Source: Armatimonadota bacterium (GTDB lineage Bacteria > Armatimonadota > Armatimonadia > Armatimonadales > Capsulimonadaceae). Taken from it: 48,371 nt of DNA. Every line of letters begins with the position of its first letter. Positions within the stretch are counted from its first letter, which is position 1. Shown here one piece after another: positions 3,865 to 38,943 of the stretch. A program made the translations under genes and the position numbers. Below the pieces are notes generated by a model. The model worked only from the letters and a program-made list of their open reading frames with translations. It was not told the DNA's origin and did not search any database. Location of the stretch: the NCBI GenBank assembly GCA_025354405.1, contig JANXMY010000184.1:1-48371 (forward strand), read 5' to 3'.

Positions 3865-5043
3865 ATGGTCAAAAACGCAGGGATGACAGAAGTATCGACG
3901 GGAATCGACGTTCTTCGGAGAGAAAATTTCGCGCGGCTCCAAGGCTGCCGCGTCGGCCTCATCACAAACCATACGGGGCTGACACGCGAGGGCTTGGCGA
4001 CAATTGATGTGCTGCATCAGGCGCCGGGGGTCTCGCTGGAAGCTCTTTTCGGACCGGAACATGGAATACGCGGCGACCATGACGAAAACGTTGCAGATGG
4101 TGTGGATGGAAAGACGGAACTCGTCGTCTACTCGCTCTTCGGGGCCCGAACCCAGCCAACCTCCGAACAGCTTACCGGCCTGGACACGCTCGTGTTCGAT
4201 ATTCAGGACATCGGCTGCCGCTTCTACACGTATCTCAGCACACTAGGGAATATCCTCGAAGCGGCAAGTACCCATGGTCAACGGGTCATCGTGCTGGACC
4301 GGCCCAATCCTATCACCGGGGCGCACCCCGAAGGGCCGCTGGCAGAGAGTGACGCATTGTCATTTGTTGCCTATCATCCGATCCCCGTGCGGCACGGGCT
4401 GACGCTCGGAGAGCTGGCCCGGTTGATCTACGCCGAAAAGAGGCTGACCTGTCCGCTGGAGATCGTTTCGTGTGAGAATTGGAATCGAGGCGATTGGTAC
4501 GATGCGACCGGGCTGCTCTGGACAAATCCTTCTCCCAATATGCGGCGTCTGTCAGCCGCCGCCCTGTACCCCGGGATCGGCCTGCTTGAGTTCACCAATG
4601 TGTCCGTCGGACGCGGCACAGACACGCCTTTCGAGATCTTCGGGGCACCTTACCTTGACCCGCGTGCGTTTGCATCGGCACTCAACACGGAAAACCTGCC
4701 AGGGGTCCGTTTTATCCCGCTGACCTTCACCCCGGCCACCAGTGTCTTCGCTGGGGAAGTCTGTGGTGGGGTGCAGATTTTCATCGCGGATCGGGAATGT
4801 CTGAATGCCGTGCAGGTTGGCATAACGATTGCCGTCACACTGCTCCGCCTTTATCCCCACGATTGGCAGCCGGAAAAGCTGAAGACATTGTTGTGCTGCA
4901 ATGCAGCTTACGAACGTTTATTGGAGGGGGCAGCGCCAGAGGCAATTACCGCAGGATGGGCAAAAGATTTAGTTGGTTACGCCGACCGTGTTCTCCCATA
5001 TCTTCTCTACACTGCCCGCATCGGAGCCAAAGAGGAGAGGTGA
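3865..5043 (+). CDS. Exo-beta-N-acetylmuramidase NamZ-like (DUF1343)
   Basis: A 392-residue DUF1343/GH171 protein. Conserved blocks include TNHTG, FGPEHGIRG, DIQDIGCRFYTY, DRPNP, SPNMR and the YPG...LE.TN.S.GRGT..PFE segment. Characterised members release N-acetylmuramic acid from the non-reducing ends of peptidoglycan fragments. No signal peptide is visible, in contrast to secreted NamZ, so a cytoplasmic role in muropeptide recycling is inferred. The ATG at 3865 sits 5 bases after a TATAAT; an in-frame ATG at 3883 is the alternative. Its last 75 bases overlap the 3' end of the convergent HD-GYP gene. Confidence 0.85.
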   Translation: MVKNAGMTEVSTGIDVLRRENFARLQGCRVGLITNHTGLTREGLATIDVLHQAPGVSLEALFGPEHGIRGDHDENVADGVDGKTELVVYSLFGARTQPTSEQLTGLDTLVFDIQDIGCRFYTYLSTLGNILEAASTHGQRVIVLDRPNPITGAHPEGPLAESDALSFVAYHPIPVRHGLTLGELARLIYAEKRLTCPLEIVSCENWNRGDWYDATGLLWTNPSPNMRRLSAAALYPGIGLLEFTNVSVGRGTDTPFEIFGAPYLDPRAFASALNTENLPGVRFIPLTFTPATSVFAGEVCGGVQIFIADRECLNAVQVGITIAVTLLRLYPHDWQPEKLKTLLCCNAAYERLLEGAAPEAITAGWAKDLVGYADRVLPYLLYTARIGAKEER

Positions 5044-7074
5044 CAGAACCGGCAGAAGCAAGGTGCGGCGGACAGTCAAAAAAGCCTCTACGCAGTTTTT
5101 ATCCCACTGCTGTCCAGCCCCCTGGGCAAGAATCTCTTGTGCGCACTCCGCTTCCATTCCCTTGCGGTATGGCCGGTCGGTCGTTAGGGCGGAGTATGCA
5201 TCTGCAACCGCCATCAAGCGTGCCAGAAAGGGAATGTCTGTGCCTGCCAGACCATCCGGATATCCACCACCGTCCCAGCGCTCGTGATGGTGCCGAATGG
5301 CGTCCAGTGTCTCCTCCAGGCCGGCCACGGCCCCCACGATCACCGCCCCCATAATCGGGTGCTGCTTGACCGCCCGGTATTCTTCGTCGGTAAGTGCGCC
5401 GGGCTTGCGCAGTATGAAGTTCGGGACACCGATCTTGCCGACATCATGCAGCAGAGCCGCCATCAGTACCGTATTGCAGGCCTTTTCATCCAGATTCAGC
5501 GCTTGGGCGATCTGGTAACTATAGGCCATAACATCTTCCGAATGTCGGCGCGTATAGCGGTCTTTCGTATCGACTGCCGTCACCAGCGCATTCAGCATGG
5601 AGAAGTTCGCCATCGAGCAGGAGAGCTGAGCGCGAAGCTGCTCGGTCAGCTCACCTGCTCCGCTCCCCCCGCATTTGACCCGCATCAGACGTGCATCTGC
5701 CGCTTCCAGTGCTTCCAGTCGCCCGGGCCCGTCCTCAGGGAAGAGTGCCACTCCCAGTGACAGCGTGAGTGGAATGGGAGGACCTGTCGCCGGCTGGTAC
5801 TCAATATCCTCAAATTCCTTGGTCAAACGGGCCGTGATCCCCGCCGCGCTCTGCGATTCCACCCCTGGAAGCAGCATCGCAAACTCATCCCCTCCATAGC
5901 GGGCCAGTGTGTCATAGGAGCGGGAGGATCGCCGCAGGGCACTGGCGACCAGCGTCAAAACTTCATCGCCGACCAGATGCCCGTAGGCGTCGTTGAAAAA
6001 TTTGAAGTTGTCCAGATCGATCACGACCAGAGCAACGCTTTCCCCGGTACGGTGCGCCCGATCAGCTTCCAGTTCGAGGTGTTTATGAAACGCTCGGTGA
6101 TTTAGCAGACCGGTCAGCGGGTCTTTGTCCGCCTGCTCCCGAGCTTCCGCGAGAAGAGATTCCTGCTGGGCTAGCAGCTCTTGCTTGGCTTCGAACTCCG
6201 CGGCATGACTCATAGCGGCGGCAATTAGCCCGGCCATCAACTGCAGCGTCTGCTCATCCAAAGCCGTGAACGCATGAATCTCGGCTGAACCCACTTGCAG
6301 AACTCCCACAACCACCCGGTCATGATGCAGCGGTACAACAATCATTGAGCGAAGCCCCAGGCGGCGACAGGCGGCCAGATCCGCCCGAGAATCGCACTCG
6401 ACATCATCGCAGCGCAGAATTTGTGCGGACGCGACACATTCCCCACTAAGGCTCCCCGCGCGCTGCTGCCGATGCCCGAGAAACGGCACCGCCCGTCCAG
6501 CGACCGCACGGTAAGTGAGAACCTCGCCGTCGACCCAGAGCAATACCGCTTCATCGGCCCGGGTGAGCTTTTGGGAACGGCCCACAATCAAATCCATCAT
6601 CGCCGAGAGATCCCGCTCCGCCGTCGCAATATCGTACTGTGTTGCAATAATTGCAGAAAAACGTTCACTATCCTGCCGCAGGGCCTCCTCCGCCCGGCGA
6701 CGTTCCGCGACCTCCGCCTCGAGGTCCGCGACCCGCCGGTCCACCAGCATGGAGAGACGCCGTTTTTCCTGCCGCAGGGCATCTTCGGCGCACAAGCGCT
6801 TATCGAAGATGCTGCCGACAATCGCCAGTCCCAGGCAGAGAAGAACTGAAAGACCGAAGATTTCCGCTTCAGCGGAAATATCCTGCATATGCAGCCTATT
6901 ATACGACATCAGCCGGAAATAGGCCAGACAAGAGCGGATGCCGGCAGCAGGCATCGCGAGAGCGATAAAAAGCCAGACCCAGTGACGCCCATACGTTCGG
7001 TGCATTTTCAGTGCCAGTATTGCACACAGAAACTGCGTCAGAAGCGATGCACAAAGTATGAGCAATGAAGTCAT
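4969..7074 (-). CDS. Membrane GAF-GGDEF-HD-GYP c-di-GMP protein
   Basis: A 701-residue protein. It has three N-terminal membrane helices (about 2-22, 31-52, 71-90), a coiled coil (about 95-140), a GAF-like sensor (about 150-290), a GGDEF domain and a C-terminal HD-GYP domain (about 490-650). The cyclase site is intact (YGGDEF near residue 395) with an RSYD inhibitory site five residues before it. The phosphodiesterase site is intact too: LLHDVGKIG (near 543) and HHHERWDGGGYP (near 600). It may therefore both make and degrade c-di-GMP. AATAAT lies 7 bases before the ATG and no Shine-Dalgarno sequence is seen. Its last 75 bases overlap the 3' end of the convergent muramidase gene. Confidence 0.88.
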   Translation of the reverse strand: MTSLLILCASLLTQFLCAILALKMHRTYGRHWVWLFIALAMPAAGIRSCLAYFRLMSYNRLHMQDISAEAEIFGLSVLLCLGLAIVGSIFDKRLCAEDALRQEKRRLSMLVDRRVADLEAEVAERRRAEEALRQDSERFSAIIATQYDIATAERDLSAMMDLIVGRSQKLTRADEAVLLWVDGEVLTYRAVAGRAVPFLGHRQQRAGSLSGECVASAQILRCDDVECDSRADLAACRRLGLRSMIVVPLHHDRVVVGVLQVGSAEIHAFTALDEQTLQLMAGLIAAAMSHAAEFEAKQELLAQQESLLAEAREQADKDPLTGLLNHRAFHKHLELEADRAHRTGESVALVVIDLDNFKFFNDAYGHLVGDEVLTLVASALRRSSRSYDTLARYGGDEFAMLLPGVESQSAAGITARLTKEFEDIEYQPATGPPIPLTLSLGVALFPEDGPGRLEALEAADARLMRVKCGGSGAGELTEQLRAQLSCSMANFSMLNALVTAVDTKDRYTRRHSEDVMAYSYQIAQALNLDEKACNTVLMAALLHDVGKIGVPNFILRKPGALTDEEYRAVKQHPIMGAVIVGAVAGLEETLDAIRHHHERWDGGGYPDGLAGTDIPFLARLMAVADAYSALTTDRPYRKGMEAECAQEILAQGAGQQWDKNCVEAFLTVRRTLLLPVLSPLLFGSDAGSVEKIWENTVGVTN

Positions 7075-9665: not shown

Positions 9666-12600
9666 TCACTTCAGCGGATCATACGCAGAGACGCTGACCG
9701 TGTGCGCCTTGCCGATCGTCGAATGCACCAACAGCGTGTGCGTTTGCCGCGTCGACTCCGGTCCCAGAAGGCGGCGGGAGGCGATCAGGCCCAGGGTGGA
9801 AGTCTGCTGGCCGTCGATCTCCAGAACCTCATCAAACAAATTCAGACCGGAAGTATTCGCCGGCGCACTCGCGGCGATCTCGGCCACGATTACGTGTGGA
9901 TGGCCGAAGGGGTCCTTCGTCTCGATCAAAGTCAGGCCAGTCGTTTTAGAAACGAATGCCGCATGAACAGCGGGAGTCGGGGCAAAGAACACACGACTGC
10001 GCGGGTAATCGAACGTCACCACAAAGCGGGAAAGCAGCTTCACGCCAAGCGCACCGGCGTTGATCAGCGAAGCGCCCCCTTTCGGGTCCAGCGAAAAGTC
10101 CGTGGGAAGTGATGGAAACGTGACTCCGGCGACCGTAAATGACCCGATGCGTGTCACCCGGGATCGTGACACCCCCCCGATTCCCCCGCCGACGGAAACC
10201 TCTCCGCGCGGGTAGCGCTTATTCAGTCCATTCGCCGAAACAAAGGGGCTGTACAGGCGCAGGGCGGCTTCGTCGCCGGTATCCAGCAGAAATCGAGCGG
10301 GTGGCAGATTGTCCAATTTGGCTGTCACCGAGGGGACATCGCTGTCCAGCTCAATCGGCAGCGATGGCCCATCAGAGGCCGTGGGGTGAAATGCATCCGG
10401 CGCGATAAATGTCAGCTGCTTATGCAAAAAATCTATCCGCACCACGAAATGTGCCAGCAAGTCGTAGCCGACGAACCCGGCAAGCGGGTGCGTGAAATAA
10501 GAATTGAGCGTAGGCGGCAGATCAATTGCAATGGCGGTAATATCCGTCAGCTGCACCGCCCCAGGGACTTCGAAGCGGTTGATCAGAATTGGCCGCAGAT
10601 CCGTCGAGCCGCCGTATCCCCGCGCTTCGAGAAAGCCTGCCGTCTTCAGTCCGAGCTTCGTCGCTACCAACTGCGAGAGCGCGATTCCGCTGGCCCCACT
10701 GTCCAGAAAGACACGCGACGACTGCCCATTGATTTTAACGGTGAAGCCGATCTCCCCATCTTCCATGTCAAAGGGAACCGTCGCCCGGGTCGCACCAGGT
10801 TTGAGAAATCCGAACTGCCTGCCACCGATTGGAGGGGCAAACAGGCTTGGCAGCAATGTGATATTGTTCGCGACTTTGATCACATTTCCGGTTATATCGT
10901 AGCGTGCGGTGCCATTGGTCGTGACCTGATGGAACGGAAACTGAACCCCATCGACCGTGTGATAGTCACTGAAGCTTGTTGCCACGGCGACGTTATCATC
11001 AAAGTGCTGCTCTTTAGCAATCAACCAAGTTTTCGGATCGAAAAACAGCGTTGTCTCCTTGCCTCCGACCGGCAGCGCATCCACGATATAATTCCCCGTC
11101 CCCGCTTCGAGGGCAGTCCGCAAAGTCATCTTGCCAGGGATCCGACCGGGAATGACGTAAGAATTCGTATCGAAATAGAGCTGTACGCGCAGGTCTTTAA
11201 GCTCTTCCCCAGCCAGTGGGCGAACGTTGCCATTCGAATCACGCTGCCAGGCATACTTGCCGTTATAGCCCTGCAGAATATGCAGGATGCCTAAATTGTC
11301 CTCTTCATATTCGAGATCCGGAGCGGCGTAGACAGTCGTGATCGTCCCGTGAATACCGCCAGTCAGTACGTCGGAAGTCATTTTAGTATTCTGGATCGCC
11401 GCCACGGCTTCCCTGCCGCCCAGAGCAGCCAGATGCTTCTCCAAAAGTGTTCCGAGTGTTAGTGTCCCCGTAGGAGCGGGGCTTGCCCCCGCCCTTCCGT
11501 CCACTCCCGCCCCTCCAGCTGTTCCTTCTGCACCGAAACTCTCTGCCTTTTCTGGCCCGGTCTTCTCCAGCCGAATGACCCCGTGCGAATAATCAAATGT
11601 CACCACGAAGCCTTGCAGGGCTTGACTGCCAATCCCCCCGGCCAAAGTGGAAATGCGTGTGATCCCGGGTCCGGTCATCGTCGCCAGTGTGAGATTCGGA
11701 ATTTTGGCCGTCCCCAAACGAAGCGTATGCCCAGGCGTCGCCGTCTCCGAGAGTGCACCGCCAACCCCGACCCCAATGCGCGTCTGAGCAGCCGGATCGC
11801 CGACTTTCGGCAGAAAGCTATTGGCCAGCGCATACTGCGAATAAAGATGGACTGCCCCGGCATCCCCTGTATCCAGCAGAAAACGTGCAGGCGGGCGGTT
11901 ATCGACCGATGCCATCACGGTGGGCATCCGGTTCTCCAGCTTGAGCGGCAGCGTGATCGCTCCGAGTGCCGATTTCCCGGATGGTTCGGCGGGGTCCCGG
12001 AAGACCACCTTTTTCTTTACGTAATCTATCTGCACGACAAACCGTGTAAACAGCTCGTAACCTAGAGCACCATCGACATGGCCGCGTTCGCTGAGGAGCT
12101 TTGCGACATTCGGATCCTTGATGACGACCAGTGGCTGATGATGCAGACGTATCGCCGTGCCGACGTCGATTGTCGCAGCAGTCGCCACTCCAGTTGCCGA
12201 TGCCCCGCCGTAGCCCAAGGCCTGCAAATTCCCCTGAGTCGTGATCCCGGCATTCTGTGCTGCGAGCGAGGTGATAAACGATCCCCCCGCGCCGCTGTCG
12301 AGCAGCAGGCGCAGCGGATGTCCGTCGACGGAGGCGGCCAGGACGATTTCCCCGGCCTCTAACGAGAACGGAACACTGACTTCTTTGCCGGGACTTGGCA
12401 GTAGAAACTCCCAATCTTTCGGCAGAATTGGCGGAGAGAAGAGTGCCTCCGCCATGGTCGTCAGCCGGACTGCTTTTTGCAGATCGGCCTCAATCGCCAG
12501 GGGCAGTCCCCCATACTGGATTTGGAGATGTGCCGGGATTTTCTCCCCAAAGAAGGTCTGGTACGACTGTATCTCGATCGTCCCGGCAATGCCACCCTTG

Positions 12601-13151
12601 CGCTCGATAAACTTACGAACTAGGTAGCTCTTCGGGTCGATAAAGATTGTCTGCCGCGTCCCGCCTTTTGGCCGTGCTTCTAAAACGTAGCACCCCGTTT
12701 CCGGATCGCGTTTGGCGGCGAGCGTCACCGTCCCGGCCATCCCTTTTTTGAAAGGGTCGTAGCTTTCCAGTGAAAACGACGTATCGGCGGTATGCTCCGT
12801 CAGCTCTTCGCCGCCAAGAATTCGGACCGTGCCGCTGCCGTCCTGCTCCCAGTTGACTTTGCCGTTGCTGCCTGTTGTGATTGACAGCGGCCCAAGTACC
12901 AGTTCCGTTCGCAAGCGATGCGGCGGGGCCTCATAACTCGTCATGGTCCCGGTCAAACCACCGGCACTGATGTCATAGACGATCAGATGCGTCGATTTAT
13001 CCCGGGCAGCGTCCGGTGCCCCCGAGGCGGCCTGGTGACGCGCGATAATCTGCGCCAATGTTGGCGAGACGGCAAAGACCGGAGCGGCGAAACAGAGGAG
13101 GCAGAGAGAAAAAGCGCACTGGGCGGCACGAGGGCTGGGTAGTAATTTCAC
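9666..13151 (-). CDS. Exported double pepsin-like protease with PDZ domain
   Basis: About 1161 residues from the GTG at 13151, which gives a standard signal peptide (MKLLPSPRAAQCAFSLCLLC...). TACTAT lies 6 bases before this GTG; an ATG at 13175 would add 8 residues. The protein is two homologous halves. Each has a LolA-like beta domain (TGTMTSYEAPPHR / HGTITTVYAAPD) followed by two aspartic-protease lobes: LLDSGAGG and FLLDTGDAG in half 1, FLDSGASG and FLLDTGDEA in half 2. A C-terminal PDZ domain (about the last 90 residues) follows. Each half could form one bilobal active site. The linker between halves includes RAGASPAPT, encoded by an interspersed palindromic repeat (11470-11495). Substrate unknown; periplasmic or surface location is inferred. 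Confidence 0.85.
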   Translation of the reverse strand: MKLLPSPRAAQCAFSLCLLCFAAPVFAVSPTLAQIIARHQAASGAPDAARDKSTHLIVYDISAGGLTGTMTSYEAPPHRLRTELVLGPLSITTGSNGKVNWEQDGSGTVRILGGEELTEHTADTSFSLESYDPFKKGMAGTVTLAAKRDPETGCYVLEARPKGGTRQTIFIDPKSYLVRKFIERKGGIAGTIEIQSYQTFFGEKIPAHLQIQYGGLPLAIEADLQKAVRLTTMAEALFSPPILPKDWEFLLPSPGKEVSVPFSLEAGEIVLAASVDGHPLRLLLDSGAGGSFITSLAAQNAGITTQGNLQALGYGGASATGVATAATIDVGTAIRLHHQPLVVIKDPNVAKLLSERGHVDGALGYELFTRFVVQIDYVKKKVVFRDPAEPSGKSALGAITLPLKLENRMPTVMASVDNRPPARFLLDTGDAGAVHLYSQYALANSFLPKVGDPAAQTRIGVGVGGALSETATPGHTLRLGTAKIPNLTLATMTGPGITRISTLAGGIGSQALQGFVVTFDYSHGVIRLEKTGPEKAESFGAEGTAGGAGVDGRAGASPAPTGTLTLGTLLEKHLAALGGREAVAAIQNTKMTSDVLTGGIHGTITTVYAAPDLEYEEDNLGILHILQGYNGKYAWQRDSNGNVRPLAGEELKDLRVQLYFDTNSYVIPGRIPGKMTLRTALEAGTGNYIVDALPVGGKETTLFFDPKTWLIAKEQHFDDNVAVATSFSDYHTVDGVQFPFHQVTTNGTARYDITGNVIKVANNITLLPSLFAPPIGGRQFGFLKPGATRATVPFDMEDGEIGFTVKINGQSSRVFLDSGASGIALSQLVATKLGLKTAGFLEARGYGGSTDLRPILINRFEVPGAVQLTDITAIAIDLPPTLNSYFTHPLAGFVGYDLLAHFVVRIDFLHKQLTFIAPDAFHPTASDGPSLPIELDSDVPSVTAKLDNLPPARFLLDTGDEAALRLYSPFVSANGLNKRYPRGEVSVGGGIGGVSRSRVTRIGSFTVAGVTFPSLPTDFSLDPKGGASLINAGALGVKLLSRFVVTFDYPRSRVFFAPTPAVHAAFVSKTTGLTLIETKDPFGHPHVIVAEIAASAPANTSGLNLFDEVLEIDGQQTSTLGLIASRRLLGPESTRQTHTLLVHSTIGKAHTVSVSAYDPLK
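11470..11495. repeat. Interspersed GC palindrome inside a coding region
   Basis: A 26-bp sequence with 8-bp GC stems around a CTTGC loop (one mismatch here). It matches 25 of 26 bases with the intergenic copy at 38918-38943. Here it lies in frame within the protease gene and encodes the linker RAGASPAPT on the minus strand. Confidence 0.85.
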
Positions 13152-13200
13152 GCGGTCATAGTACCCGAAATGCACAAAAACACTCTCGCTCGAGGGTGTA

Positions 13201-25184: not shown

Positions 25185-25322
25185 GCCACGGATTGGAAAT
25201 CCGAGGCTCCGAAAAGCCCAGCGTCCAAGGGAAGCAAGAAATTGATTGGAAGGCCGCGCATCACTCTCTGAACGTCGCTTTGACGGTGGGCTTTTTCCAG
25301 CCTCGGATTTCCAATCCGTGGC
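25185..25322. repeat. 138-bp palindromic MITE-like element
   Basis: Perfect 24-bp terminal inverted repeats, 25185-25208 and 25299-25322. Pairing continues imperfectly inward to about 25230/25279 (gaaaagccca with tgggcttttt, then cgtc-caag with ctttgacg). Each terminal arm also holds its own hairpin (cggatt-gga-aatccg). It fills most of the gap between the glutathione peroxidase and SDR genes, and no transposase is present. No target-site duplication is obvious. Confidence 0.88.
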
Positions 25323-38401: not shown

Positions 38402-38896
38402 ATGTCAAACACCCCCGATATTGCACCCGAAGACCAGCCAGATATCCTTTCCCGGCGTGAGGTTCTCAAGACGGTTGCCGCCGGCCTTGTCCTACTGCTG
38501 CCGCTAGCTTCGGCCACCGCCAAACCTACCCCGGAGCAGTGGACGGCAGTCGGCAAATCCGCAGAGTTCGTGGCAAACACGCCGAAGAAAGTCACATTGG
38601 CCGACGGCTCCGTACTTTATGTCACGCGCCAGACCGCAGCCACTGTAATTGCAGTCTCTTCCAAATGCACCCACAAAGGCTGTCAGGTCGGGTGGAAGCC
38701 AGGCGAAACAAAGTTCGAATGTCCCTGCCACGGAGCCGCCTTTGCCGCCACCGGCAAAAACCTCAGCGGGACCATGCGGCACCCACAGGAAATCCTGCCG
38801 AACCTGCCCTCCCTGCCGACTCGCCTCAAAGACGGCAGCATTGAAGTGGACCTGGCCGCCGTGCCGGTTGAAAAGCGTCGTCCAAATCCAGAGTAA
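38402..38896 (+). CDS. Tat-exported Rieske iron-sulphur protein
   Basis: A 164-residue protein with a twin-arginine-type leader (SRREVLKTVAAGLVLLLPL, about 17-36) and a Rieske [2Fe-2S] domain with CTHKGC and CPCHGAAF supplying two Cys and two His. Such proteins transfer electrons at the outer face of the inner membrane, often in cytochrome b complexes or with an oxidase. No cytochrome gene is adjacent. AAGGAG lies a few bases before the ATG. It is divergent from the GH57 gene. Confidence 0.9.
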   Translation: MSNTPDIAPEDQPDILSRREVLKTVAAGLVLLLPLASATAKPTPEQWTAVGKSAEFVANTPKKVTLADGSVLYVTRQTAATVIAVSSKCTHKGCQVGWKPGETKFECPCHGAAFAATGKNLSGTMRHPQEILPNLPSLPTRLKDGSIEVDLAAVPVEKRRPNPE

Positions 38897-38917: not shown

Positions 38918-38943
38918 GTAGGGGCGGGGCTTGCCCCCGCCCT
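38918..38943. repeat. Interspersed GC palindrome, intergenic copy
   Basis: A 26-bp element with an 8-bp perfect stem GGGCGGGG/CCCCGCCC and a CTTGC loop. It is the twin of the in-gene copy at 11470-11495. It sits 22 bp after the Rieske stop codon. Confidence 0.85.

Follow-up and report, generated by a model that had tools for sequence, protein, structure and literature searches.

GTAG-tagged REPs, short non-autonomous mobile palindromes, were described by Di Nocera, De Gregorio and Rocco in 2013 as 20–40 bp palindromes with a stem of 5–13 bp and a loop of 2–20, lying mostly in intergenic positions behind genes and forming head-to-head dimers (PMC3733652). The TAG of GTAG was reported often to be a stop codon, some copies were found to be translated within ORFs, for which flexible linkers were suggested, and recB was noted to carry different REPs at nearly the same position in two Xanthomonas species (PMC3733652). 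That survey names Proteobacteria, Cyanobacteria, Chloroflexi and the PVC group, and 'Armatimon' is absent from its main text. A consensus similar to the one described below, GTAGGAGCGAGGCTTGCCCGCGA, was given for fluorescent pseudomonads (PMC3686654), and as of 2021 the spread of REPs was still poorly understood (PMC8266576).

The window analysed here, 48,371 nucleotides in length, is contig C86 of the 3.6-Mb draft genome (233 contigs; G000) of an uncultured Armatimonadota bacterium. Two forward-strand copies of a 26-bp palindrome were present, as the initial annotation had noted: GTAGGAGCGGGGCTTGCCCCCGCCCT at 11470–11495 and GTAGGGGCGGGGCTTGCCCCCGCCCT at 38918–38943, identical at 25 of 26 positions, with 0 matches to the 11470 repeat expected from 100 shuffled windows. 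The 38918 copy is intergenic, about 22 bases past the stop of an ORF ending at 38896. The 17-base core, with at most one mismatch allowed, occurred 40 times in G000, and the core read backwards, used as a control, 0 times. In the sister species G001 the same core had 78 occurrences, and each of 19 other relatives had 0 or 1; this family, termed A, is restricted to the genus of G000 and G001.

Copies of family A start with GTAG. Folded as DNA, the consensus copy forms an 8-bp stem with a 5-base loop (−11.4 kcal/mol) and leaves the GTAG unpaired, and the copy at 11470–11495, with its 5' GTAG, forms a hairpin of −9.2 kcal/mol (z = −3.2). Opposed pairs are frequent, for example at 6130+/6222− on contig C149 of G000 and at 4440+/4550− on contig C152 of G001. 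With its unpaired terminal GTAG, palindrome, stem and loop of the described sizes, dispersed lineage-specific copies, inverted dimers and use of TAG as a stop codon, the 26-bp element belongs to a family of GTAG-tagged REPs. Inspection of the sequence at 11499–11516 (+) points, speculatively, to GTCCACTCCCGCCCCTCC as a possible degenerate partial second copy (12 of 18 positions shared with the adjoining repeat arm); truncated tandem arms beside REPs are clear in other genes, namely ThyX (RAGADPRAGADPRAGASPAPT) and E2 (AADKEGAADKEGAASSAPT).

The 11470 copy lies inside an aspartic-protease-like gene on the minus strand (1169-codon ORF, 9666–13175; HMM gene call, 9666–13058), the product of which has two homologous halves and two Asp_protease_2 stretches (E = 6e-28). 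Alignment to orthologues and of the halves to each other placed the N-terminal half at about residues 35–540 (11556–13073, minus strand) and the C-terminal half at about residues 571–1169 (9669–11465, minus strand). Between them is a variable linker (11466–11555, minus strand), differing in length and sequence in every orthologue, which holds the repeat. The minus-strand codons AGG GCG GGG GCA AGC CCC GCT CCT ACG specify RAGASPAPT (residues 561–569), immediately N-terminal of the second half, which starts with TLTLGTLLEKHLAALGG; codons and Asp_protease_2 matches both agree with the earlier observation that the palindrome is in frame and encodes this peptide between homologous halves. In an AlphaFold model of the protease built from four sequences (mean pLDDT 42), residues 541–573 of the linker had no predicted structure, which is uninformative since much of the remainder also scored low. 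Two D-S/T-G motifs are apparent in each half (LLLDSGAGG and FLLDTGDAG; VFLDSGASG and FLLDTGDEA), and the protease-like domains in the product of 9666–13175 may number four.

Three further palindrome families were encountered. A looser search starting from GTAG recovered a second, related family in G000, family B (GTAGGGGCGCTGCTTGCCGCGCCC). Family C, the GTAG palindrome GTAGGGGCATGGTGTGCCATGCCC, gave 45 matches in G004, a count in which some palindromic copies were scored on both strands, and 0 in 20 other genomes. Family D, written TCCCCCAGAATTGGGGG, reached 207 copies in G004 compared with 2–6 in other genomes, and 39 of 72 D copies sampled in G004 were inside called genes. The D copies of G004 often form opposed pairs, read APPAPNSGGAG...PAPPELGAGG, and the proteins concerned are heavily decorated.

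Full orthologues of the protease with both halves were found in G001, G004 and G002 (86%, 53% and 49% identity, respectively); in public collections, the records for these orthologues come from Armatimonadetes MAGs, with the G004 protein also encoded by JAFAZD01. In G001 the linker contains the same family A REP with one synonymous change, and the linker N-terminal of the REP is unalignable. The linker in G004 holds one copy of family D, CCCCCAATTCTGGGGG, followed by two tandem family C copies, read APNSGGAGQGMAHHAPTGQGMAHHAPT. In G002, a single-contig genome of the same family, the duplication is present and the linker is short and repeat-free. A maximum-likelihood tree of the eight halves of the four orthologues and four single-half outgroups separated the four N-halves from the four C-halves with support of 100/100 and 100/99, and N- and C-halves are only about 31% identical, compared with 84–87% for the same halves between the sister species. 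Since both halves occur in all four orthologues and group by position in the tree, the duplication predates the split of the genera. Judged from these sequence comparisons, the repeat is a later arrival, apparently inserted into a linker that already existed. Alignments of G000 and G001, in which a base-precise empty site was sought, gave no readable exact insertion boundary, because the flanks are too diverged to yield such a site or a pre-existing GTAG target.

The position of the repeat at the junction of the protease halves had led to the suggestion that it helped create the duplication; one conceivable route would be recombination between copies on either side of a gene with a single half. 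We consider this highly improbable, because the duplication is common to two genera without family A, the halves fall into fully supported N and C groups, and their mutual identity is so low; within the sampled family, the tree of halves rejects it. It is even harder to credit that ordinary Ala/Pro/Gly-rich coding sequence of a GC-rich genome came to resemble the repeat by chance: RAGASPAPT is a typical low-complexity linker, but the DNA matches a 40-copy genomic family at 25 of 26 positions where no match is expected, and G001 has kept the repeat DNA, apart from the synonymous change, beside linker sequence that can no longer be aligned. The other part of the initial annotation, that a mobile-type repeat became protein linker sequence, was upheld by the confinement of family A to one genus and by the short repeat-free linker of the G002 orthologue, and no distant genome was seen with the same linker and the repeat absent elsewhere. 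Very probably, family A spread in the genus and one copy entered the linker that already joined the two anciently duplicated halves of an aspartic protease, where it was tolerated. The insertion would have taken place during the spread of this GTAG REP family within the genus, probably before its two species split. Tolerance of the nine inserted codons is proposed because the insert is in frame, is stop-free in that frame and adds only the small, flexible residues of RAGASPAPT; the protease is presumed to be made as a protein, with a linker that would be functionally neutral.

Other copies were fetched and classified with a small codon-usage HMM gene caller written for this analysis, and most proved to be intergenic. 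Beside the genome-wide count of 40 core copies, the listing of coding copies yielded 12 clearly internal copies of family A, seven read as RAGASPAPT and five as VGAGLAPAL, with only two of the five stop-free frames in use. The probability of this restriction by chance is about 2e-4 if the five frames are equally likely, allowing for frame choice, a value to be read with the knowledge that the copies are not fully independent and that the gene caller favours such codons; the two-frame bias is only supportive. The genes with internal copies belong mostly to known families, including ThyX (with two ThyX stretches), dihydrolipoamide acyltransferase (E2), molybdopterin oxidoreductase, GMC oxidoreductase, FlgA and FliK. 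In every gene with Pfam domains the coding copy was outside those domains: between the lipoyl and E3-binding domains in E2, between the two stretches in ThyX, between the domains of the molybdopterin oxidoreductase, and behind the fused Gluconate_2-dh3 domain of the GMC oxidoreductase. A REP dimer in a membrane-protein gene (L113, 2038–2222) encloses a translated tandem repeat of SGTSAP/FGTSAP units.

Copies also meet genes at their ends. The TAG of GTAG (once TAA) is the exact stop of the upstream gene in 26 copies, including L215 2653–2656, L110 2065–2068, L170 2498–2501, L137 1501–1504 and 22 others, and no other offset was represented by more than six; some of this excess would arise anyway, since a frame that enters the repeat in that phase has to terminate at this point. 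At one orthologous stop, the flanks are alike up to ACCCCGTAG (GTAG), beyond which G000 has family B and G001 family A (L012, 1777–1800; L164, 2588–2612), where the site appears to have been retained and the repeat class switched.

Comparison of orthologous linkers across genera revealed different palindromes in the same places. In ThyX, family A occupies the interdomain linker of both sister species, as a degenerate copy in G000 and, in G001, as an opposite-strand copy accompanied by tandem partial arms; G004 carries a copy of D there, and the G002 linker is short. Between the lipoyl and E3-binding domains of E2, an A copy in G000 corresponds to a B copy on the other strand in G001; a palindrome-like stretch with five mismatches in E2 of G004 was not counted, since the control also gives many matches at that level. 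In a membrane protein, one and the same loop, with well-conserved flanks, is occupied by a dimer of family B in G000, by family A in G001 and by an exact copy of D in G004. In the molybdopterin oxidoreductase, the linker carries A in G000 and two degenerate D copies (three and four mismatches) in G004, and the G002 protein had no such palindrome copy. Four linkers were looked up in G004 without preselection, and three of them, in the protease, ThyX and the molybdopterin oxidoreductase, contain G004-type palindromes, with no clear case in E2; the membrane protein, having been found via the D sample itself, was left out of this count. If G004 is assumed to have about 4,500 genes, no more than a few percent of them should contain a D copy, and three of four is then unlikely by chance (roughly 1e-4).

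It is close to an even call, in our judgement, that a few interdomain linkers are standing landing sites which each genus refills with its own repeat family, the linkers of ThyX and dihydrolipoamide acyltransferase evolving largely by REP turnover instead of point mutation. Somewhat doubtful, though a serious possibility, is that the linker was already repeat-bearing in the ancestor of the genera and that the A, B, C and D copies are replacements, arising by insertion into or recombination with a resident REP, such that the site is inherited and its sequence turns over. Consistent with replacement, the GTAG palindromes in the protease linkers of this genus and of G004 differ but share orientation and frame (...APT), the flanks at the L012/L164 stop are alike up to GTAG with B facing A, E2, ThyX and the membrane protein have linkers that differ between orthologues in family (A versus B) or orientation, and G004-type palindromes recur in three of the four unselected linkers. 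However, the distances from repeat to domain in the protease differ between this genus and G004, recurrent fresh insertion at the few sites that tolerate it would give a very similar picture, and the sample of orthologous sites is enriched for those with repeats in both species.

As for the mobilizing enzyme, family A may have been moved by a RAYT/IS200-like single-strand Y1 transposase. No family A copies flanked the four Y1 transposase (Y1_Tnp) genes of the G000 draft (233 contigs) or those of G001, and no RAYT gene was found beside copies of family A or C. The three Y1 genes tested scored better as IS200 than as RAYT, two of them matching RAYT at 27.8 and 30.2 bits against a cut-off of 80. 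Elsewhere in the window, a long inverted repeat at 25185–25322 (CGGATTGGAAATCCG core) resembles palindromes flanking an IS200-type transposase gene (L220, near 366–785; L112, near 11363–11806) and appears to be a miniature element of a second type. The contig end (1–282) contains a 41-nt inverted repeat as well as two different tandem arrays, one with units of 14 bp and the other of 23 bp.

The protease shows cleanly the states before and after a mobile repeat became protein sequence, with orthologues that carry the same repeat, different repeats or none. If recurrent refilling of the same linkers is true, REPs would be a regular source of linker diversity rather than rare accidents, and the insertion and replacement of REPs would be naturally recorded in orthologous linkers. 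Rickettsia palindromic elements, discussed in PMC3733652, are likewise palindromes in frame inside ORFs, but the rickettsial units of the GTAG REP superfamily are tagged CGTC, whereas family A is tagged GTAG, and RPE-1 is longer than the family A repeat. The REPINs and RAYT systems (PMC3116915, PMC2817692, PMC8266576) share with family A the dispersed REP singlets and inverted pairs, and differ in that the analysis turned up no RAYT gene with family A copies at its flanks. The closest likeness is to the GTAG REPs of PMC3733652, which have GTAG at one end, a 20–40 bp palindrome, dimers, stop-codon use and translated copies. Translated GTAG REPs, TAG stops, the linker suggestion and the recB case were already known from that work; new here is a phylum unmentioned in its main text. 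In addition, orthologues of five multi-domain or membrane proteins were compared across genera in the present analysis, the same linker holding unrelated families; that unrelated families in different genera should repeatedly occupy the same linkers is an extension worth following.
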